A stretch of DNA of 35,086 nucleotides from an uncultured Roseiflexus sp. (GCA_937935075.1 CALGYB010000179.1:1-35086), one strand, 5' to 3'; shown: positions 15,849 to 30,430, counted from the first letter of the stretch. Notes: generated from the sequence alone by a model not told the origin. A program made the numbers and translations.

Positions 15849-18185
15849 TTACGCTCCGCCTCGAGCCTGATTGCAGGCGCGCCAGACTTTTTCAGGGCGC
15901 AGCGGCATGTCGATGTGCCGTACCCCGAGATGTTTGAGCGCATCAACGACTGCATTGACAATGGCCGGCGTCGAGCCGATCGTCGCGGCTTCACCGATCC
16001 CCTTCGCACCCAGCGGGTTGTGCGGCGTTGGCGTGACCGTCTGCTCGACGACAAACGCAGGCAGATCATCGGCGCGGGGAAGAGTATAGTCCATAAGTGA
16101 CCCACTGAGCAACTGTCCATTTTCGTCGTACACGACTTCCTCGAACAGCGCCTGTGCGATGCCCTGCGCCAGACCGCCATGCACCTGACCGGCGACAATC
16201 AGCGGGCTGATGCGCGGACCGCAATCATCGACGCTTACGTAGTCGCGGACGGTCACAACGCCGGTGTCGGGATCGACTTCCACAACCGCCAGATGTGCGC
16301 CGAAGGGATAGATCAATGCTGGCGGCTTGAAGAAATCGGTCGCTTCCAGTCCCGGATCAATATCATCAGGCAGATCATCGGAATAGGCGCGTTCGGCGAT
16401 CTGCGCCAGTGTCAGACTGCTGTCGGGCGCGCCTTTGACGTGATAGCGCCCCTCGTCGAACACCACATCATCGAGCGCCGCTTCGAGCATATGCGCAGCG
16501 ATCCGGCGCGCCTTCTCGCGGACCTGCGCAATCGCGCGCACAAGCGAACCGCCGCCAACCGCCAGGCTGCGGCTGCCCATCGTCCCATTGCCCATCGGCG
16601 TTGTCGCTGTATCGCCGCTGCGCACAATGACCTTCTCGAAATCAGCGCCGAGTTGGTCCGCAACGATCTGTGCAAAGGTCGTTGCAGTCCCCTGACCATG
16701 TGGCGAAATGCCGCTCATGACGGTGACCGTCCCCGAAGGTTCGACACGCACATGCGCGCTTTCATACGGACCGAAGCCGCACATCTCGACGTAACAGGCG
16801 ATGCCGATGCCCAGCAACGGCACACGCTCACCGGCAGCGCGCGCGACAAGGCGTTGCTGCTGTTCGGCGCGCAGGTCGGCATAGCGGCCCACTTCCAGCG
16901 CCTTGCTCAACGCCTTGTCGTAGTCGCCGCTGTCGTAGGTCGGACCGACGGGCGTTTTGTAGGGGAACGCATCGGGTGGAATGAAATTGCGCCGGCGCAC
17001 CTCGACGGGATCAAGACCCAATTCGAGCGCAATCGCGTCCATCAAACGCTCGATATAGTACGCGGCTTCTGGGCGGCCCGCGCCACGGTAGGCGGCAACC
17101 GGCGTGGTGTTGGTGTAAACGCAGGTAATTTCGTAATCGACAGCAGGAATGCGGTACACCCCCACAGCCATCTGTCCTGTCAGATTCGGGATGCCTGCCG
17201 ACACCGGGTACGCGCCGAGGTCGGCAACAACGCGAGCACGCAGCGCCGTAATGACGCCATCAGCAGTCACCGCCGCTTCATACTCCGCAACCTGCGCCCG
17301 CCCGTGAGTCGTCGCCTGCATGTGCTCCAGGCGCGTTTCGACCCAGCGCAGCGGCATGCCCAGGCGCCGGGTGAGCGCCGCCAGCGCCGCCTCTTCGGGA
17401 TAGACGCCGATCTTGACGCCAAACCCGCCGCCAACATCGGGAGCGATCACACGGATCTGATTTTCCGCCATGCCCAACATCTTTGCCAGGTCGCGCCGGA
17501 TCCAGTGCGCCGCCTGTGTGCTGGTCCAGACGGTCAACCCCTCCGTCATCGGATCGAGCGCCGTCAGTACGGCGCGCCCTTCCATCGGCACACCCGACAG
17601 ACGCTGGCTGACCATGCGCAACATCACAACTCGATGCGCGCAGGCGAATGCCGTTTCGACATCGCCGCGCTTACGACGCCACACATGGTCGATATTGCTC
17701 TGCGATCCCTCAAACAGCAGCGGCGCATCAGGACGGAGCGCCTGTTCCATGCTGGCAACCGCCGGAAGCGGCTGCCAGTCGACCACAACCGCCGCCGCAC
17801 CGTCCTCTGCCGCCGCCGGGCTGACGGCGATGACCGCTGCGACAATTTCACCCACATGTCGCACCTTGCCGACCGAGATGGGATAGTGTGAGTATTTCGG
17901 CGGCGCCTCTCCCGCCACATCTGCTCCTTCGCCGCCTTCGAACAGCATCTCGGTGTATGCACCTCGCAGGTCCTCGCCGGTCACAACCGTCGTGACGCCC
18001 GGGAGACGCAGCGCCGCCGACGGGTCGATAGCGCCAATCCGGGCATGCGGGTACGGACTGCGGACAAATGCGACATGCTGCATACCAGGCAGCGACATAT
18101 CGCCAACGTAGCGTCCCGCGCCGGAAATCAGGCGCGGATCCTCCCTGCGACGCACCTCCGCGCCGATCAGTGATGCGTAAGCCAT
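15849..18185 (-). CDS. Molybdenum hydroxylase large subunit (xanthine dehydrogenase/CoxL form II-like)
   Basis: The 778-residue protein is a Mo-cofactor-binding large subunit. It begins with the ald/xan a/b hammerhead domain (DPRLISGAGRYVGDM...VAFVRSPYPHARI) and has the cofactor region PDVGGGFGVKIGVYPEE. The active-site loop is AYRGAGR, the signature of form II CoxL-like proteins rather than the AYXCSFR of true CO dehydrogenase. The GHGQGT-equivalent SPHGQGTATTFAQIVADQLG and the catalytic Glu in GAKGIGEA are present. Such enzymes hydroxylate aldehydes, purines or other N-heterocycles, normally with FAD (CoxM) and [2Fe-2S] (CoxS) subunits, neither of which is encoded in the window. GAGGGT lies just before the ATG. 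The substrate cannot be told. Confidence 0.9.
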   Translation of the reverse strand: MAYASLIGAEVRRREDPRLISGAGRYVGDMSLPGMQHVAFVRSPYPHARIGAIDPSAALRLPGVTTVVTGEDLRGAYTEMLFEGGEGADVAGEAPPKYSHYPISVGKVRHVGEIVAAVIAVSPAAAEDGAAAVVVDWQPLPAVASMEQALRPDAPLLFEGSQSNIDHVWRRKRGDVETAFACAHRVVMLRMVSQRLSGVPMEGRAVLTALDPMTEGLTVWTSTQAAHWIRRDLAKMLGMAENQIRVIAPDVGGGFGVKIGVYPEEAALAALTRRLGMPLRWVETRLEHMQATTHGRAQVAEYEAAVTADGVITALRARVVADLGAYPVSAGIPNLTGQMAVGVYRIPAVDYEITCVYTNTTPVAAYRGAGRPEAAYYIERLMDAIALELGLDPVEVRRRNFIPPDAFPYKTPVGPTYDSGDYDKALSKALEVGRYADLRAEQQQRLVARAAGERVPLLGIGIACYVEMCGFGPYESAHVRVEPSGTVTVMSGISPHGQGTATTFAQIVADQLGADFEKVIVRSGDTATTPMGNGTMGSRSLAVGGGSLVRAIAQVREKARRIAAHMLEAALDDVVFDEGRYHVKGAPDSSLTLAQIAERAYSDDLPDDIDPGLEATDFFKPPALIYPFGAHLAVVEVDPDTGVVTVRDYVSVDDCGPRISPLIVAGQVHGGLAQGIAQALFEEVVYDENGQLLSGSLMDYTLPRADDLPAFVVEQTVTPTPHNPLGAKGIGEAATIGSTPAIVNAVVDALKHLGVRHIDMPLRPEKVWRACNQARGGA

Positions 18186-19065: not shown

Positions 19066-19536
19066 ATGAGGGCAGTTATCCAACGTGTCAGTGAAGCCTC
19101 CGTCACCGTTGAGGGCAGGGTCGTCGGCGCAATCGGACGCGGGCTGCTAATCCTGCTCGGCGTCGGCATCGGTGACAGCGAGGCGGAAGCGAAACTGCTG
19201 GCAGAGAAGAGCGCCAATCTGCGCATTTTCGCCGATGACGAAGGGCGTTTCAATCGTTCATTGCTCGACATTGGCGGCGAGGCGCTGGTCGTCTCGCAAT
19301 TTACGCTCTACGCCGACACCCGGCGCGGACGCCGCCCTGGTTTTTCCGACGCTGCACCGCCGGAGATCGCCGCACCACTCGTCGAAGCCTTTACCAGCGA
19401 ACTTCGGCGCCTGGGAATTGCTGTCAGCACCGGACAGTTCGGCGCAATGATGCAGGTCGCACTGGTGAACGACGGCCCGGTGACTATTCTGCTCGACAGC
19501 GCCATTTTCCGTGAACCGCGCAACCGGCACGAATGA
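19066..19536 (+). CDS. dtd: D-aminoacyl-tRNA deacylase
   Basis: The 156-residue protein begins [33 protein letters not shown] and contains the two family motifs SQFTLYAD (catalytic region) and [12 protein letters not shown], which brings the Gly-cisPro of this family. Dtd removes D-amino acids (and glycine) wrongly attached to tRNAs, a translation quality-control step in the cytoplasm. Length is normal. The gene lies in a short operon: 10 bases after the hotdog gene, and its TGA overlaps the ATG of the next small gene. Confidence 0.96.
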
Positions 19537-19778
19537 TGAACCCTTCCCCTGACGACGAACCGCTCGAGCAACTCGCCAATGCCCTGGTGCAACGCGGACT
19601 GGCGGCGCCAGCCCGTATCTTCTTCGATGTTCTTGCACCGCTTGGATTCCTCGCCAGCCAGATGACGCTCTTCGTCCGTCCATTCGTTCCAGGAGACCGC
19701 TGGACGCGCTATGTTGACGCCTTATCCGACACACGCGGATGGGAGCAGTTGCGCGATATTCTGAACCGTGACTGTTGA
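19533..19778 (+). CDS. Small hypothetical protein downstream of dtd
   Basis: The 81-residue product ([20 protein letters not shown]...) has an acidic head and a hydrophobic middle ([26 protein letters not shown]) that could lie on or in the membrane, then a helical end ([19 protein letters not shown]). I do not recognise a named family. Its ATG overlaps the dtd stop, which supports real translation; a second ATG one codon later is equally possible. The stop codon (19776-19778) lies within the -35 box of the promoter for the next operon. Confidence 0.7.
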
Positions 19779-19803
19779 CAAACGATTTGATTTGAATTAC
19801 ACT
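19775..19803 (+). promoter_or_regulatory. Near-consensus sigma-70 promoter of the LPxWL/GlmL-like operon
   Basis: TTGACA (19775-19780) is a perfect -35, followed after exactly 17 bases by TACACT (19798-19803), a good -10. The predicted transcription start is near 19810, about 45 bases before the GTG at 19854. The -35 box overlaps the stop codon of the preceding small gene. It indicates that the following five genes can be transcribed separately from dtd. Confidence 0.8.
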
Positions 19804-19853
19804 CAAAGCCAGCACAGCGCACGACTGTGTAAAGAATTGTGCGGAGGCGGTTC

Positions 19854-20618
19854 GTGGATCTCCCCCTTCAGACGCTTGCCCTGCTGCTCATCGTTTTTAT
19901 TGTCATTATTCTGACACTCCTCTACCACGCGCGCGCGCTCGACCGGCGGCGCACCTTCAGTCGTCGTCCGCTGCCCGCGTTCGAGGCGTTGCGGCGCGGG
20001 TTGGGGAGTGGCGCCGAAACCGGTCGCGCGCTTCATCTCTCGCCAGGGAGTGGCGCCATTGGCTCGCGCGCGACAACAGCGGAAACGATCGCGGGGTTGC
20101 TTGCTGCAGAGCGCACTGCTACTGAGGCTGCTCTTAGCGGCATCCCGATCATCGCCAGTTCTGGCGACGCCGTGGCTCATCTCGCGCTGCGCGGCACGTT
20201 GCGCCAGGCATATCAGCGCGCCGGCCTCGGTCAGGATTACGACGCCGGGAACGTGCAATTGCTGGCACAGCAAGACCCGATGGCATATGCTTCGGGGGTC
20301 GTCACGCTGTACGGGAGACAACGCTTCGAAGCCAGCCAGCTGATCGGCAGTTTCGGGTATGAAGCGCTGCTGGCGACTGAGACGGGAGCGCAATCCGGCA
20401 TCCCGCAAGTTGCCGGCGCTACCACATCGACTGCGCTGCCGCTTATCTACCTGTCTGCTGACGGAACGCTGATCGGCGAGGAGATCTACGCTGCCGAAGC
20501 CTATCTCTCACGCGCACCCGAAGCGCAGGGACGTCTGCTAACCCACGATGCGCTGCGCACGGTCGCAATCGTCGCTATCATCGTGCTGGCGCTCTGGCAA
20601 TCGCTGATTGGCTTGTGA
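19854..20618 (+). CDS. Membrane protein, DUF6754-like
   Basis: The 254-residue product has an N-terminal membrane helix (residues 5-25, TLALLLIVFIVIILTLLYHA), a soluble region of about 190 residues and a C-terminal helix (TVAIVAIIVLALWQSLIGL) at the very end. The middle (HLSPGSGAIGSRATTAETIAGL...EEIYAAEAYLSRAPEAQGRLLTHD) resembles what I remember as DUF6754, an uncharacterised family in Chloroflexota. The GTG at 19854 is chosen because GGAGG lies 6 bases before it; an in-frame GTG at 19839 would add five residues but overlies no ribosome site. The stop overlaps a GTG of the next frame. It is first in the five-gene unit driven by the promoter at 19775. Biochemical function unknown. Confidence 0.78.
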   Translation: MDLPLQTLALLLIVFIVIILTLLYHARALDRRRTFSRRPLPAFEALRRGLGSGAETGRALHLSPGSGAIGSRATTAETIAGLLAAERTATEAALSGIPIIASSGDAVAHLALRGTLRQAYQRAGLGQDYDAGNVQLLAQQDPMAYASGVVTLYGRQRFEASQLIGSFGYEALLATETGAQSGIPQVAGATTSTALPLIYLSADGTLIGEEIYAAEAYLSRAPEAQGRLLTHDALRTVAIVAIIVLALWQSLIGL

Positions 20619-20632
20619 AGCGGGAAGGATCG

Positions 20633-21304
20633 ATGACCTTTCTACGCGATCCAAAACGTCTGATCGCCACCCTGATCGCCGGAGTGGCCGGTTTGCTGGT
20701 GTTGCTCGACTTTGCTGGACCTCTGCCGGTCATCAGTTCTCTCGCGCAGATAACGCTCGATTGGGCTGCGTTGATTGGGGCGCTGGCGCTGGTGATCGGG
20801 CTGCTGAATGTGACCGGCAGCCACATTGGTCGTGTGGCGCGACGCAGCGCCGACTGGGGGTATAGTCTGATACTGCTTGCGGCGATGGTAATGGTTATTT
20901 TTGCAGGAACGCTCTTCCCATTGCAAAATCCGGATGGCAGTCTGACCTTTCCATCAAGCCTGATTGAGCAACCGGTGCGACTGGTGTTCAGCGCGGTTTA
21001 TACGCCGCTTGCAAGTTCGTTGCTTGCATTGCTGACATTCTTCGGCCTGAGCGCAGCACTGCGCGCCGTGCGCCGCCGTACAACGGATGCGCTGGTCATT
21101 GTTGCTGTGGCGCTGGTGGCGTTGCTTGCCGCCTCGTTGCCGCAACTGGAACGCGCGCCGGCGGTTGCCGACGGGGTGCGCTGGTTTTCAGATTATGTCG
21201 TGCTTGCCGGTGCGCGCGGTTTGCTGATCGGGGCGGCCATTGGCGCGCTGGTCGCAGGAGTACGGGTATTGCTCGGGTTCGACCAACCATATCTGGATCG
21301 ATGA
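20633..21304 (+). CDS. Polytopic membrane protein of unknown function
   Basis: The 223-residue protein has about six hydrophobic helices (LIATLIAGVAGLLVLLDF, WAALIGALALVIGLLNV, SLILLAAMVMVIFAG, LASSLLALLTFFGLSAAL, ALVIVAVALVALLAA and GLLIGAAIGALVAGVRVLL). The RVARRSADWGYSLILL segment would lie in the cytoplasm. I do not recognise a named family. An ATG at 20633 with AAGGA just upstream is preferred; an alternative GTG at 20615 overlaps the previous stop (GTGA) and would add six residues. It is second in the GlmL-like operon. No catalytic motif is evident, so a structural or partner role for the neighbouring membrane proteins is the only inference possible. Confidence 0.78.
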   Translation: MTFLRDPKRLIATLIAGVAGLLVLLDFAGPLPVISSLAQITLDWAALIGALALVIGLLNVTGSHIGRVARRSADWGYSLILLAAMVMVIFAGTLFPLQNPDGSLTFPSSLIEQPVRLVFSAVYTPLASSLLALLTFFGLSAALRAVRRRTTDALVIVAVALVALLAASLPQLERAPAVADGVRWFSDYVVLAGARGLLIGAAIGALVAGVRVLLGFDQPYLDR

Positions 21305-21364
21305 GGGGATGGACGCGCTCTCATCAGTGATGATCTCAATCGTGGCGGTTCATCATCGCAAGAC

Positions 21365-24052
21365 ATGCTGGCGTCCAGGGAGCAGGTGTTGAGCCGGTCA
21401 AATCGTAATCCACATTTGCCGCCATGGCTCCAGGATGTGCCGCTGCCGCCAAAGCCGCTGGAGCCGGGACAGGACACAGGCGATACGCCGTTATTCTCCG
21501 GCTTGCCGGAGTGGCTGCGTGATGAAGACGAGACGGAACAGGCGACCACACCTTCGTGGTTACGTCCGGCGCCAGACATCACGCCAGAAGACGATGCTTC
21601 GGCGCCTCCCTGGACGCCCGTTTCCGATCAAACTCCAACAGCGCCTTTCGATGCTTCTGCGTCGCCTGAGGAGTCGCCACCCTCCTGGCTCCAATCGCTG
21701 CGCGAATCCATCACAATGCCGGACACGCCCGAATCCGAAGAGACTGCTTCGGAACCAGCGCCGTTGACCGGAGTATCGGATGCTGGACTCGAGTCTCGAT
21801 TGTCTGCCGGCAGCGGTGAGATGGACACACCTCCGTGGCTGGCAGATGAACGTCTTGAACAGCACATCGACGAGTCGCCTGCTGGTCGCGCTGAAGCGCA
21901 TACCAGCGGTGATCTTCCGTCCTGGTCTGGCGGTATCGTCGATGAGTCGAGTGAAGCGGTTGATCTCCCGGCGTGGCTACGGGAATTGCCGGTTACTGAT
22001 AGTACGTTGCAGATGCCTCCATCTGCTTCCGCTGCGCCCCCGTCCGGGCGACCCGCCGGGGCGCCCCTACCGCCGCCCGCCGCGCCCCTACCGCCCGCCG
22101 CGCCCGAACCGCCTGGCGGCGACTTGCCCGATTGGTTGCGCGACATCGCCGCCGAAACGCCCGCCGGGGCGCCCCTGCCGCCCGCCGCGCCCCTACCGCC
22201 CGCTACGCCCGAAACGCCCGCCGGTGATCTGCCCGATTGGTTGCGCGACATCGCCGCCGAAACGCCCGCCGGGGCGCCCCTGCCGCCCGCCGCGCCCGCC
22301 GCGCCCGAACCGCCTGGTGGCGACTTGCCCGATTGGTTGCGCGACATCGCCGCCGAAACGCCCGCCGCGCCCCTGCCGCCCGCCGCGCCCGAACCGCTTG
22401 GTGGCGACTTGCCCGATTGGTTGCGCGATGTCGCTGCCGAAACGCCCGACGGGGCGCCCCTGCCGCCCGCCGCGCCCGCCGCGCCCGAACCGCCTGGCGG
22501 CGACTTGCCCGATTGGTTGCGCGATGTCGCCGCCGAAACGCCCGCCGGGGCGCCCCTGCCGCCCGCCGCGCCTGCCGCGCCCGAACCGCCTGGCGGCGAC
22601 TTGCCCGATTGGTTGCGCGACATCACCGCCGAAACGCCCGCCGGGGCGCCCCTGCCGCCCGCCGCGCCCGCCGCGCCCGAACCGCTGGCCAGCGATCTGC
22701 CCGACTGGCTTCAAACACCCGCGCCATCATCACAGGAAACGCCGCCCTGGCTCGAAGATGAGCACGGGCGACCGATCCCCACCGGCGCCACAGGCGATGC
22801 AGGATTGCCAGATTGGCTGCGAGGTGCTGAGATCACGGCGCCTGGTGTGCGTGATGGACGATCTCAGACAACAGAACCCGCAACGTCTCAAACCTCGAGT
22901 GACTTGCTCAGCGGCATGGATCTGCCCGAGTGGCTGCGTGTCGAGCCAGAACCCAAACCGGAACCGACGCCGGTCGGTGCGCGCAATCTGGACTGGCTGA
23001 AGCGTCTCGGCAGCGCCGCCGAGGACGAGGTGAGCGTAGGATCGGCGGTTGCAGCACCAAAACTCGCACCGCCTCCTGCGCCGCAACGCACCGAAGAACA
23101 GATCAAAGCGCTGAGTCTGTTGAGGCATCTGGCGGAGGAACCAGTTCCTGCCGCTGCACCGCTGCCTGCGCCGGAGCGAGGAAGTACGTTGCAGCGCATC
23201 GGGATCGAGCGCCTGCTCTCGATTGCTCTGTTGATATTCGTCATTATTGCCGTTGTATTTCCGGGGATCGCCCCGTTTCTCGAGACGCCTCCAGCCATTC
23301 CCGCCATAGCCCAGGCACACGAGCAGATTGCCTCGCTCGGTGAGAACGATGTGGTCCTCATCGGCTACGAATGGGACGCCAGGCGCGTCGGTGAACTGCG
23401 ACCACTCGAGCGCGCAGTCATCGGACAACTGATCGCCCAGAAAGTCAAACTTGTGTTGGTGAGCACCGATCCCCAGGGAACCTTGCTTCAGTTCGATCTG
23501 CTCGATGCCTTGCGAGAAGCTGGTTACCGGCAGCAAGGCGAGGGATACCTCCTGCTGGGATACAAACCTGGCGGCGAAATAGCGCTGCGAGCGTTAGGAC
23601 GCGATTTTCAGACCGTGTTGCGCAGTGATTATCGTGGGGACGATGCAACCGGCAGCGCGTTGATCGCCGGTATCGACACGGGTCGCCCAATTGCGAGTCT
23701 GAATGACCTCTCGCTCATTATCGTTCTGGCAGACGACACGCCCGATGTGCAGGGATGGATGGAACAGGTGTACCCACAGGCGCAGACAGGCGACCGTCCG
23801 GTATCGCTGGTATTCCTGCTGCCAGAAGAGGCTGCCCCCATCGTTCAGCCATATATGCGTCAGCCAGGCGTCGCCGCTATCGCCGGGCAACGCGGCGCGC
23901 TGGCGTATACGGCGCTTACTCAGGGCAGCAACATGCCAGGAGTCGCTGAAACGGCAACACGGCAGCGACTGACCATTCTTTTGTTTGTGGTCGTGCTCGT
24001 GTCCGGTCTGGTCATCAGCGGCATTGACGCAGCACGCAGGAGGCGTTCGTGA
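21365..24052 (+). CDS. LPxWL-motif repeat protein with two membrane helices
   Basis: The 895-residue protein has a ~605-residue acidic, proline-rich N-terminal part holding about 19 copies of a short motif of the form [L/T/P]P.WL: LPPWLQD, LPEWLRD, TPSWLRP, PPSWLQS, TPPWLAD, LPAWLRE, a block of seven LPDWL units, TPPWLED, LPDWLRG, LPEWLRV and lastly LDWLKRL. A membrane helix follows (about 613-636), then a ~230-residue globular domain (EQIASLGENDVVLIGYEWDARRVGEL...), a second helix (about 867-887) and a basic RRRRS end. The predicted layout is motif region inside and globular domain outside. The ATG at 21365 is the only plausible start in frame, with a poor ribosome site. The stop overlaps the GTG of the next gene. 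Function unknown; the motifs suggest a docking scaffold. Confidence 0.85.
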   Translation: MLASREQVLSRSNRNPHLPPWLQDVPLPPKPLEPGQDTGDTPLFSGLPEWLRDEDETEQATTPSWLRPAPDITPEDDASAPPWTPVSDQTPTAPFDASASPEESPPSWLQSLRESITMPDTPESEETASEPAPLTGVSDAGLESRLSAGSGEMDTPPWLADERLEQHIDESPAGRAEAHTSGDLPSWSGGIVDESSEAVDLPAWLRELPVTDSTLQMPPSASAAPPSGRPAGAPLPPPAAPLPPAAPEPPGGDLPDWLRDIAAETPAGAPLPPAAPLPPATPETPAGDLPDWLRDIAAETPAGAPLPPAAPAAPEPPGGDLPDWLRDIAAETPAAPLPPAAPEPLGGDLPDWLRDVAAETPDGAPLPPAAPAAPEPPGGDLPDWLRDVAAETPAGAPLPPAAPAAPEPPGGDLPDWLRDITAETPAGAPLPPAAPAAPEPLASDLPDWLQTPAPSSQETPPWLEDEHGRPIPTGATGDAGLPDWLRGAEITAPGVRDGRSQTTEPATSQTSSDLLSGMDLPEWLRVEPEPKPEPTPVGARNLDWLKRLGSAAEDEVSVGSAVAAPKLAPPPAPQRTEEQIKALSLLRHLAEEPVPAAAPLPAPERGSTLQRIGIERLLSIALLIFVIIAVVFPGIAPFLETPPAIPAIAQAHEQIASLGENDVVLIGYEWDARRVGELRPLERAVIGQLIAQKVKLVLVSTDPQGTLLQFDLLDALREAGYRQQGEGYLLLGYKPGGEIALRALGRDFQTVLRSDYRGDDATGSALIAGIDTGRPIASLNDLSLIIVLADDTPDVQGWMEQVYPQAQTGDRPVSLVFLLPEEAAPIVQPYMRQPGVAAIAGQRGALAYTALTQGSNMPGVAETATRQRLTILLFVVVLVSGLVISGIDAARRRRS
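22121..22714 (+). repeat. 96-bp in-frame tandem repeat encoding GDLPDWLRD...PAAPEPPG units
   Basis: The codons for DLPDWL begin at about 22121, 22226, 22322, 22406, 22502, 22598 and 22694. Spacing is 105, 96, 84, 96, 96 and 96 bases, always a multiple of three, so the 32-residue unit expands and contracts in frame. The DNA of neighbouring units is nearly identical, which implies recent duplication or homogenisation. The high G+C opens long false ORFs in other frames here. Confidence 0.93.
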
Positions 24053-24696
24053 GTCAGGATGTCATCGTCAACATCGTCGCCGCATTGTTGACGCTCATGG
24101 TGTTGAGCAGGGTGGCAGGCGATAATCCGTTGTTTCGGGTTGCGCAGTATCTGTTCGTTGGCACTTCCCTCGGGCTGGCATTTGTTGTGGCGTACCATCA
24201 GGTGCTGCGCCCGGCGGCGCTGGCGCTCCTCAGCGGCTCGACGACTGCGGTGTGGCTCTACGGCGTGCCGTTCCTGCTTGGCGTGTCGCTCCTGCCGCGT
24301 ATCACGGGCGATCAGCGATCGTCGTGGCTGGCAAACATTCCCCTGGCGCTGGTCTTCGGCGTCGGTGGGGCGCTGGCAATCGGCGGCGCCATCGTTGGCA
24401 CGCTGCTGCCACAAATCCGCGACACGGCGCGCCCTCTGTCCGGAGGCACAGGTGAGATTGCCGGGGTCGTCGTGCTGGCAATCGGTACGGTCGTAACCCT
24501 GGCATCCTTCTACTACACGGCGCCGCCGGAAAGCCGCGGCGGGCGCATCGTCAAAGGCGCAGCCGCCATTGGTCACTGGCTGGTTATGGTCGCCTTCGGC
24601 TTTTTCTTCGCCGGTGCGTTGCAAAGTTATCTGAGCGCGCTGGTCGAACGGGTGAACTTTGTTCTGGCAACGGTGCGCAGTTTGTTTGGCGCGTAG
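24049..24696 (+). CDS. Polytopic membrane protein of unknown function
   Basis: The 215-residue protein has about six hydrophobic segments (IVNIVAALLTLMVLS, VAQYLFVGTSLGLAFVVAYH, AVWLYGVPFLLGVSLLP, IPLALVFGVGGALAIGGAIVG, IAGVVVLAIGTVVTLASFYY and WLVMVAFGFFFAGAL). A conserved-looking junction is GDNPLFRVAQYLFVGTSLG. I do not recognise a named family. It starts at GTG 24049, overlapping the TGA of the LPxWL gene (GTGA), and ends 21 bases before the ASKHA-type gene, so it is an integral member of the same operon. It probably forms part of a membrane complex with the other products. Confidence 0.8.
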   Translation: MSQDVIVNIVAALLTLMVLSRVAGDNPLFRVAQYLFVGTSLGLAFVVAYHQVLRPAALALLSGSTTAVWLYGVPFLLGVSLLPRITGDQRSSWLANIPLALVFGVGGALAIGGAIVGTLLPQIRDTARPLSGGTGEIAGVVVLAIGTVVTLASFYYTAPPESRGGRIVKGAAAIGHWLVMVAFGFFFAGALQSYLSALVERVNFVLATVRSLFGA

Positions 24697-24717
24697 GAAA
24701 AGGAAATCAGGCGCAGC

Positions 24718-26751
24718 ATGTCCGTCCCGATCACATTGCATGCCTTTCTGGTTGCCGATGTCGGCAGCACAATGACCCACGTCTGGCTGGTTGACGCTGT
24801 CGATGGTGAAACCCGACTCATCGGCCATGCCGAAGCTCCCAGCAGCGTTCCTGCGACAGGAGACGCAACTGCCGCCATTATCGAAGCCACACAGCGCATC
24901 GAAGAACAAACCGGCCGCCGTTTGATCGACAACAACACGCTGGTGACGCCGAAACAGGCGGAGGGTGATGGGGTTGACGGCATTCTTGTCTGTAGCAGTG
25001 CGGCAGGCGTGATGAGCCTGATCATCGCGGCGGTCGCTGGCGATATTTCGGCGCGGAGCGCGCAACGCGCCGTGCGCGCAACGTATACCCGCGTCCTCCA
25101 GACTATCACGCTTGACGATGCAGTTCGCCAGGAGCAGGTCGGAGTCATGGCAGACTCGGGCCTGACCTGGATCGAACGTCAGGTACAGACGTTGCTCGGC
25201 GTGCGGGCCGATGGTGTGGTGATTGTCGGCGGGATCGAAGGCGGCGCACAGGACGCGCTCATACGCCTCGCCCACATCGTCGGACTGGTGTCGCGGAGCG
25301 TCCAGATTGGCGCGCAGGGAGAGCAAACCCACAACATCGCCCAACGCCCGATCATTTTCGCAGGAAATAGTCAGGCGCGCGATGGAGTTGCAGCGGCGCT
25401 GGCCGATCACCCTGATCTTACCATGGTCGATAATATTCGACCGGCCCTGGAAGTCGAGCGCCTCGATCCGGTGCGCCGTGAAATTGTGCGCGTATACAAC
25501 GAGCAGATTGTCGCTCGCTTCGCTCGAACATCCGGCCTCCAGCAACTGTCGCGTTCTCCCTTGCGCACCACGTGCGACGCCGCCGGCATCATAGCCCGAT
25601 TCGTCGCTGAGACGGCTCAGTGTAACATTCTGATGATCGATATCGGTTCGTTGCACACCACGGCGCATCTGTGCAGCCAGGGACGCTACAGTCCGGTCGT
25701 TTTGGGCGGCGTCGGCGTCGGATATGGCATTGGCGCCCTGCTGGCGCAGCGCGGCGTCGATGCCATTCGCCACTGGCTGCCCTTCCCGATCAGCGAGCGC
25801 GATCTGATACACTGGCTCCTTAACAAGATGCTACGCCCACATGTTCCTCCCCTGACCCGCGAAGAACTGTTGATCGAGCACGCTGTGGCGCGTGAGGCGC
25901 TTTCGTGCGTGCTGGAGGCGCTGCTGGACGAGCGACCCGATGCCAGGTATGACCGCGTCTTTGTGGGCGGCGGCGTGTTGCGTCATGCGCCGCATCCCGG
26001 GTTGATCGCGTTGACCGTGCTCGATGCGTTGCAGCCGACATCGAAAGAGAACGCCATGGCGCTCGATCTGCACCTCGATAGCCTGGGGTTGACACCCGCC
26101 TGCGGCACGCTTGCCTTGTCCGAAGCCGACGCAGCACTGACCCTGTTCGAGCGCGATCTGATGGGCAACACCCCGCTGGCAACGGTCGTTACGACGCTCG
26201 GCGAAGGACGATCGGGGGAAATGGCCGTCGAAGCCGAATTGCGGGTGGAAGGCGGAGCGACCCACACCGTGCGCGTTGCTCACGGTGAGATCGCACGTTT
26301 GAGCCTTTCCCCTGATCGGTATGGCACCTTGACGCTGCGACCGGCTGCCGGTGTACGGATTGGACGAAACGCACCGGGCGCCGAGGTCGCATCGGAACTC
26401 GCAGGTATTCGCGGCAGCGCCCTTGGCGTGGTGATCGATGCACGCGGAAGACCGCTGCGCCTGCCGGATGAGCCGCAAGCGCGGCAGCAGGCGCTCTGGT
26501 CGTGGTTGATGGCGCTTGGGGTCGAGCGCGAACCGTTACCCTACCCGGCGCTCGATACCGTTGTCGAAGCGCCGCCTCCGGTTCTGTCGTCCGCAAAGAG
26601 CGAGCCACGCGGCAGCCGCACGTCACAACTTCGCCTCGACGAGCGCCCGGCAACGGAAACGCCCGAAGACAGCATCGAGCAAGACCTGGCAAAACTACGA
26701 CAGACGGTCGAGACCCCGCAGAAAAAACGGGGCCTGTTCCGCCGGAATTGA
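24718..26751 (+). CDS. Glutamate mutase L (GlmL/MutL)-family ASKHA ATPase-like protein
   Basis: The 677-residue protein opens with the ASKHA phosphate-1 motif in FLVADVGSTMTHVWLVD. It has family blocks VCSSAAGVMSLIIAAVAGDISARSA, VVIVGGIEGGAQD, IIFAGNSQARDGV, a second phosphate-type motif MIDIGSLHTTAHL and the late glycine-rich YDRVFVGGGVLRHAPHPG. This family was named for a protein encoded beside adenosylcobalamin-dependent glutamate mutase, but no mutase subunits (mutE/mutS) are in the window. The C-terminus adds a ~75-residue linker with a helix (SIEQDLAKLRQTVETP) and a basic tail (KKRGLFRRN) that could contact membrane lipids. It is last in the membrane-protein operon, convergent with the cyclophilin gene only two bases away. 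Probably cytoplasmic; a role as an actin-like or chaperone-like partner of the membrane proteins is inferred. Confidence 0.85.
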   Translation: MSVPITLHAFLVADVGSTMTHVWLVDAVDGETRLIGHAEAPSSVPATGDATAAIIEATQRIEEQTGRRLIDNNTLVTPKQAEGDGVDGILVCSSAAGVMSLIIAAVAGDISARSAQRAVRATYTRVLQTITLDDAVRQEQVGVMADSGLTWIERQVQTLLGVRADGVVIVGGIEGGAQDALIRLAHIVGLVSRSVQIGAQGEQTHNIAQRPIIFAGNSQARDGVAAALADHPDLTMVDNIRPALEVERLDPVRREIVRVYNEQIVARFARTSGLQQLSRSPLRTTCDAAGIIARFVAETAQCNILMIDIGSLHTTAHLCSQGRYSPVVLGGVGVGYGIGALLAQRGVDAIRHWLPFPISERDLIHWLLNKMLRPHVPPLTREELLIEHAVAREALSCVLEALLDERPDARYDRVFVGGGVLRHAPHPGLIALTVLDALQPTSKENAMALDLHLDSLGLTPACGTLALSEADAALTLFERDLMGNTPLATVVTTLGEGRSGEMAVEAELRVEGGATHTVRVAHGEIARLSLSPDRYGTLTLRPAAGVRIGRNAPGAEVASELAGIRGSALGVVIDARGRPLRLPDEPQARQQALWSWLMALGVEREPLPYPALDTVVEAPPPVLSSAKSEPRGSRTSQLRLDERPATETPEDSIEQDLAKLRQTVETPQKKRGLFRRN

Positions 26752-27783: not shown

Positions 27784-27874
27784 CTCGCGCCTCTCACCTC
27801 GCGCCTCGCGCCTCTCACCTCGCGCCTCGCGCCTCTCACCTCGCGCCTCGCGCCTCTCACCTCGCGCCTCGCGC
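27784..27874. repeat. Heptamer array: 13 units of CTCGCGC/CTCTCAC
   Basis: Thirteen 7-base units are in perfect register, in the order A B A A B A A B A A B A A, with A = CTCGCGC and B = CTCTCAC. This gives a 21-base higher-order unit repeated four times, then one extra A. It lies about 120 bases upstream of fni in the divergent region shared with the cyclophilin gene. Confidence 0.95.
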
Positions 27875-27961
27875 CTGGTCTCTCAGACAGTCGGCTATTA
27901 TAGCGCATCGGTGCGATGTTTCAGCCAGTACACATCCGCTATACGACGGGTGAAGTAAATC

Positions 27962-30246: not shown

Positions 30247-30361
30247 GGTGTGAGGCGTGAGGCGTGAGGTGTGAGGCGTGAGGCGTGAGGCGTGAGGTGT
30301 GAGGCGTGAGGCGTGAGGCACGAGGCACGAGGCAAGAGGCACGAGGCAAGAGGCAAGAGGG
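30243..30361. repeat. Heptamer array: 17 units of GTGAGGC type
   Basis: Seventeen 7-base units in perfect register. The first eleven are GTGAGGC or GTGAGGT, then ACGAGGC, ACGAGGC, AAGAGGC, ACGAGGC, AAGAGGC and a final AAGAGGG. The units drift along the array, as expected from slippage with mutation at the edges. The first unit supplies the recF stop codon. The array is, on the other strand, of the same type as the one at 32213-32331, so the two flank the radical SAM gene in inverted orientation. Confidence 0.95.
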
Positions 30362-30380
30362 TATGAAGGTGTGTGCGGAA

Positions 30381-30430
30381 GTTGAGCTGTTGCAGTGCAA
30401 CGGCTCAACCCACCGCAACGGCGCCGTTGC
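30381..30430. terminator. Two palindromes between convergent recF and radical SAM genes
   Basis: The first is a 29-base symmetrical element: GTTGAGC and GCTCAAC outside, GTTGCA and TGCAAC inside, separated by a single central G with one T/G mismatch on each side (30381-30409). The second is the perfect palindrome GCAACGGCGCCGTTGC at 30415-30430. They lie in the convergent gap and may act as bidirectional terminators. No T-run follows either on either strand, so Rho-independent termination of the standard kind is not assured. Confidence 0.42.

Follow-up and report, generated by a model that had tools for sequence, protein, structure and literature searches.

We analyzed a 35,086-nucleotide stretch of DNA (GCA_937935075.1, CALGYB010000179.1:1-35086; here called the window) from the genome of an uncultured Roseiflexus sp. 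(G000; 4.85 Mb in 220 contigs). Positions 19839-26751 of the window contain five co-directional open reading frames (ORFs) on the + strand that we call P1 to P5. P1 (19839..20618, +) is predicted to encode a DUF6754 protein with an N-terminal transmembrane (TM) helix, a cytoplasmic Rossmann-like domain, and a C-terminal TM helix. This is followed by P2 (20615..21304, +), predicted to encode a membrane protein with six TM helices, and P3 (21365..24052, +), predicted to encode a proline-rich, acidic cytoplasmic arm with LPxWL motifs (approximately amino acids 1-607) followed by a TM helix, an extracytoplasmic domain, and a second TM helix. Within P3, tandem DNA repeats with main periods of 84-105 (22052..22708, +) encode repeated LPDWLRD units. 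P4 (24049..24696, +) is predicted to encode another membrane protein with five to six TM helices and an invariant glutamine, Q122. The last gene, P5 (24718..26751, +), is predicted to encode a protein comprised of a MutL-type ASKHA region (approximately amino acids 1-481), a beta-rich C-terminal domain (approximately amino acids 486-600), and a basic tail.

An earlier reading of the window (the original prediction) described a five-gene membrane operon whose products were a DUF6754-like protein, two polytopic membrane proteins, an LPxWL scaffold with a large arm, and an ASKHA protein with a basic tail. These descriptions of the products all held, and the five co-directional ORFs are real; the prediction overlooked two further genes, P0 and P6. 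P0 (19533..19778, +) encodes 81 amino acids with the motif P-L-x-F-L-x-S-Q and sits between dtd, which ends at 19536, and P1. Its ATG overlaps the stop codon of dtd. The cluster had been started at 19854, and the P1 ORF starts slightly upstream at a GTG at 19839. The near-consensus promoter that had been proposed corresponds to a site at 19775..19803 on the + strand (TTGACA-17-TACACT), but this site overlaps the stop codon of P0 and its significance is doubtful. Since the region contains four such promoter-type sites compared with 2.0 +/- 1.4 in shuffled sequences, the site is weak evidence for an operon start. As for the touching or overlapping gene ends, P3 and P4 do overlap by four bases, and P1 and P2 overlap by four bases only if P2 starts at the GTG at 20615. 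Several P2 relatives start at an ATG equivalent to position 20633 here, which would leave a 14-base gap after P1.

The five genes form a conserved cluster. Among 301 Chloroflexota genomes that we searched for DUF6754 and a MutL-like gene, 67 contain DUF6754. Of these 67, 53 have a MutL-like gene on the DUF6754 contig and, in all 53, it is downstream on the same strand at a distance of 2.2-6.3 kb. The two genes are on different contigs in 12 of the 67 genomes, which fits assembly breaks at repeats. Two DUF6754 genomes had no MutL match; a P5 profile gave two partial matches in one of them (G105), one sharing the DUF6754 contig, and no P5 in the other (G295), which is a 700-contig assembly. Thus, counting G105 on its two partial matches, P5 is present in 66 of the 67 genomes. 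Gene maps of representative loci, made with a simple ORF picker, showed the order P1, P2 (six TM helices), P3 (two), P4 (six), and P5 wherever the ORFs were called. In the loci examined, a hidden Markov model grown from P0 (E down to 3e-39) located relatives in 58 positions. Forty-nine of these are upstream of P1 and nine are upstream of P5, the latter all outside Chloroflexota; P0 is conserved across several phyla.

We also scanned named genomes for DUF6754 and retrieved the best 80 of 239 relatives. The phylum names used for these are record titles, mostly labels of metagenome-assembled genomes (MAGs), and are to be read as such. At least eight further bacterial phyla have MAGs with the P1-P2-P3-P4 cassette, in many cases adjacent to a MutL-like gene. 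Titles among the best 80 of the 239 include WOR-3, Bacillota, Cloacimonadota, Elusimicrobia, Planctomycetota, Latescibacterota, Eisenbacteria, Armatimonadetes, and Zipacnadia, as well as two MAG contigs labeled archaeal, possibly because of mis-binning. A contiguous P0-P5-P6-P1-P2-P3-P4 arrangement is present in three loci outside Chloroflexota (L137, L159, and L176), and in some loci outside Chloroflexota the P1-P4 cassette occurs in tandem copies. Five loci (L135, L136, L138, L144, and L145) carry two cassettes each, tandem or divergent, with only P1 and P3 called twice in L145. When all neighboring genes were clustered, the only widespread companions were P0-P6 and, mainly in Chloroflexota, dtd (D-Tyr-tRNA deacylase; 19066-19536 in the window, directly upstream of P0), a family of matching length being found at 18 loci. 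No pathway, enzyme, or substrate-linked gene recurs beside the cassette across phyla. The conserved gene order in Chloroflexota (53/53 same-contig pairs), together with the relatives in other phyla, rules out a strain-specific cluster, an outcome that would have refuted the original prediction.

The second overlooked gene, P6, encodes a protein of approximately 310-430 amino acids in which a barrel-sandwich region at the N-terminus is combined with a KOW domain at the C-terminus, the latter matching an SPT5 profile (E 2e-10). It is directly after P5 in most lineages outside Chloroflexia and is present in 17 of 18 genomes tested, among them the source genome. In Chloroflexia, the neighbors of P6 are genes for a hybrid histidine kinase and for a response regulator, and the ATP synthase operon is adjacent; the source genome has its homologue on a separate contig (C90; L182:6013-7269), beside a hybrid histidine kinase. 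The idea that the C-terminal domain of P5 is a copy of the P6 barrel was dropped when their comparison gave no match. A second group of Chloroflexota families contains long MutL (P5) without DUF6754. Neither P4 nor P0 was found in any of 15 such genomes, so that P0 tracks the membrane genes, although it was not detected in one genome (G176) that has them. In this reduced form P5 in most loci adjoins P6 and a soluble WL-motif protein, several of these having an N-terminal zinc ribbon. WL motifs are also present in the P5 tail of Herpetosiphon. In the DUF6754-bearing Chloroflexota, the membrane protein P3 itself carries the WL/zinc-ribbon arm as a fusion. Because the reduced form lacks P4 and P0, there seem to be two modules, a membrane module of P0-P4 and a cytoplasmic module of P5, P6, and the WL/zinc-ribbon arm.

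P5 belongs to the Pfam family MutL (PF13941; E 5.8e-58, 197.2 bits against a gathering score of 27), is single-copy in the source genome, and ends in the basic tail KKRGLFRRN. Its nearest named relative, from a Roseiflexus MAG, is 82% identical. GlmL, a member of the same family, is thought to be an ATP-dependent reactivase or chaperone. The likeness between P5 and GlmL covers the ASKHA region; P5 differs in its extra C-terminal domain, in its linked membrane genes, in the lack of GlmE in its genome, and in its scores, which are far below the NCBIfam cut-offs. It scored 58.0 bits against a cut-off of 475 for the curated GlmL equivalog model NF040745 and 47.9 bits against 204 for TIGR01319 (glmL_fam), compared with 569 and 445 for a true GlmL used as a control (L034). 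We tested for GlmE in 30 genomes containing the cluster and in six control genomes picked for the highest MutL scores, which have closer GlmL homologues. No GlmE match was found in the source genome and none of the 30 cluster genomes had one over the cut-off, whereas three of the six controls did (G089, G176, and G178), with GlmE adjoining GlmL by coordinates in G089 and G176. The absence of a mutase that had been noted near the cluster thus extends to the whole genome, and the cluster is kept without glutamate mutase in the 30 genomes tested, contrary to the second refuting outcome named with the original prediction. The genome G176 (L098) is a natural comparison, since its P1-P5 locus is distinct from a true GlmL-GlmE pair that it also carries. 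The lack of GlmE in cluster genomes and the scores far below the GlmL cut-offs rule out a glutamate-mutase accessory and, on this sequence evidence, P5 is not one.

These data also bear on whether P5 serves another cobalamin or radical enzyme as an ATP-dependent reactivase or chaperone, with the membrane proteins acting as that enzyme's anchor. Its membership in Pfam MutL is in line with this, as is an unrooted maximum-likelihood tree that groups the mutase-type sequences in a single clade (100/100), nested next to P5 sequences from outside Chloroflexota. The fold of diol dehydratase reactivase is among the structural matches of P5 (2d0o, Z 11.4), and B12-binding radical SAM genes are near the cassette in two loci (L142 and L177). 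By contrast, none of the 30 cluster genomes has GlmE over the cut-off, no enzyme family is recurrent beside the cassette across phyla, and P5 has an extra conserved C-terminal domain that is missing from most mutase-type GlmL. In that domain D574, R576, and W596 are invariant among aligned homologues, and the alignment there consists of gaps alone in three of the four sequences of mutase type. We therefore consider a reactivase role improbable. Two other candidates were rejected. An iron-sulfur activator of the 2-hydroxyacyl-CoA dehydratase or benzoyl-CoA reductase type was rejected because P5 has no conserved set of cysteines that could bind [4Fe-4S], its best cysteine column being kept in only 41% of homologues, and a known type of anti-phage defense system was rejected because P0-P6 had no match to PADLOC models.

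We modeled P1 and P5 with AlphaFold2 and compared the models with solved structures using Foldseek and VIA-align. The P5 model (predicted template modeling score, pTM, 0.83) has an ASKHA fold, and residues of a putative nucleotide site are conserved (D14-x-G16 with T20, D308-x-G310, and G418). The model and these residues place P5 in the ASKHA superfamily, with an actin/Hsp70-like fold, two predicted phosphate motifs, and a predicted adenosine motif. The nearest solved fold by VIA-align is the divisome protein FtsA (Z 15.0), and PilM of the type IV pilus inner-membrane platform is also among the nearest (Z 13.2), with kinases, activators, and carboxylase subunits trailing them closely. The best Foldseek match is of the acetone carboxylase beta subunit/hydantoinase A type (E 1.4e-9). 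Proteins of this type likewise combine the ASKHA fold with additional domains, but the cluster has no carboxylase partner subunits. Searching the sequences of solved structures in the PDB with profiles of P1, P3, P4, and P5 gave nothing significant.

P1 belongs to DUF6754 (PF20539; E 1.2e-37, 129.9 bits against a gathering score of 27), whereas P2, P3, and P4 have no Pfam match over the cut-off. For P1, application of the positive-inside rule to 88 homologues gave a mean of 4.1 lysines and arginines after the first TM helix compared with 1.1 before it; the pattern was reversed for P3. This trend in positive charges suggests that the P1 domain is inside and the P3 domain outside. In the high-confidence P1 model (predicted local distance difference test 94.1, pTM 0.87), two TM helices flank a Rossmann-like domain, and this cytoplasmic domain contains a conserved glycine-rich loop. 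Its nearest solved folds are sirtuin (Z 11.0), RCK domains (Z 9-10), and transhydrogenase domain III (Z 9.6). Together with the loop, these matches raise the question of whether P1-P4 form a nucleotide- or NAD-sensing signaling complex in which P1 is the sensor and P5 and P6 are effectors, and the hybrid histidine kinase and response regulator beside P6 in Chloroflexia would suit such a role. Yet Foldseek gave no P1 match under E 0.001 and a Rossmann-like fold does not prove ligand binding, so we regard a sensing complex as very unlikely.

The polytopic proteins P2 and P4 contain highly conserved polar residues (H70, S84, and R201 in P2; T15, S20, N26, and Q122 in P4). The two proteins might form the path of an active transporter or flippase driven by ATP hydrolysis by P5, an idea with which these residues, the domains on both faces of the membrane, and the cassettes duplicated in tandem, a pattern also seen among paralogous transporters, are consistent. 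Against this, the P1-P4 cassette can be apart from P5 in some records and no substrate-linked gene is recurrent near it; moreover, to our knowledge, no ASKHA ATPase powers a transporter. A transporter is in our view unlikely, though less so than a reactivase.

P3 has an extracytoplasmic-looking domain flanked by two TM helices. Its arm has 12 LPxWL motifs in the first 600 residues, whereas shuffled arms had a mean of 0.04 and a maximum of three in 2000 shuffles. A WL arm is present in 39 of 46 Chloroflexota P3 proteins and in none of 24 from outside this phylum, where P3 is short (244-459 amino acids), and 31 of the 46 have an N-terminal zinc-ribbon pattern. That P1 and P3, or P2 and P4, are ancient duplicates was unsupported (profile comparison probability <=2%), though the alignment of P1 with P3 was colinear end to end. 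In Cloacimonadota MAGs we observed a DUF6754 protein of 955 amino acids with a long extra N-terminal part (L142:2480-5347).

The gene set with its order and breadth, the lack of a mutase, the trend in topology, and the fold predictions were all computed directly. We think it somewhat probable that P0-P4 are the membrane module, and P5 and P6 the cytoplasmic module, of an undescribed, conserved envelope complex in which P5 is a nucleotide-controlled platform similar to FtsA and PilM. In such a complex, which we infer to be a physical one, P1 would set its Rossmann-like domain on the inner face of the membrane and P3 its domain on the outer face, with P2 and P4 providing most of the TM helices. 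P5 most likely would act like FtsA or PilM: how firmly it holds short linear motifs or partners at the inner face would depend on its nucleotide state, and a nucleotide cycle of this kind would control whether the envelope-spanning complex assembles or is active. In Chloroflexota, P3 may have gained the long LPxWL-repeat arm as what is probably a multivalent docking site, for which P5 or P6 would be the likely binders.

FtsA and PilM are both ASKHA proteins with a bitopic partner, FtsN and PilN, respectively, whose cytoplasmic tail they bind (PMC7613929). P3 of Chloroflexota has a similar but much enlarged cytoplasmic tail, which counts in favor of a platform. The original prediction had likened P5 to PilM with its membrane partners, and this is partly borne out by the fold comparison and by the predicted layout of P3, in which, as in PilN, a TM helix links a cytoplasmic tail to a domain outside; P3 is also encoded near an ASKHA gene. 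There are also differences. P3 has a second TM helix, and its repeat arm is much longer than the PilN tail in Chloroflexota and missing elsewhere; the cluster has four further protein families, and P1-P4 have no Pfam match to pilus proteins. P5 of Chloroflexia shares a basic C-terminal tail with FtsA, but this tail is not general in the P5 family, P5 has a large C-terminal domain, and no FtsZ-like partner is encoded in the cluster.

Three results weigh against the platform model. The margin of FtsA and PilM over other ASKHA folds is only 2-3 Z units, with large root-mean-square deviations (4-9 Å), so the fold ranking is not decisive. Because the WL arm is missing from P3 outside Chloroflexota (0/24), binding of WL motifs by P5 cannot be the core mechanism, and we dropped the idea that the arm is an essential dock for P5. 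Lastly, P5 is kept in genomes without the membrane module and part of its role is therefore independent of that module. More broadly, it is possible, though we would stop short of calling it probable, that this is an envelope machine of approximately seven proteins in at least nine bacterial phyla, run by an ASKHA ATPase, and that the mutase-linked GlmL/Or-4 clade is one specialized branch, rather than the origin, of an older ATPase family.

Elsewhere in the window, a neighboring ORF of 778 amino acids on the - strand (15849-18185) resembles by eye the large subunit of xanthine/CO dehydrogenase. Short tandem repeats outside likely genes are located at approximately 27790-27900 and 30300-30420, with HASRLTP/PRASHLA-like runs in the ORF translations.

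In a literature search that was thin on subscription journals, we found no paper that names DUF6754, joins GlmL with ASKHA, or describes this gene set. The gene set and its membrane module seem to be undescribed; the fold of the ATPase itself is well known. A family named after one enzyme accessory belongs, in many lineages, to a conserved membrane system of unassigned function, and through the cluster DUF6754 and several unannotated families all gain provisional partners. The gene order is stable enough for direct tests in cultured hosts such as Herpetosiphon, Roseiflexus, and Chloroflexus. If P5 does work in the manner of FtsA or PilM, it would add a further, independent case in which an actin-fold protein serves as an envelope platform.

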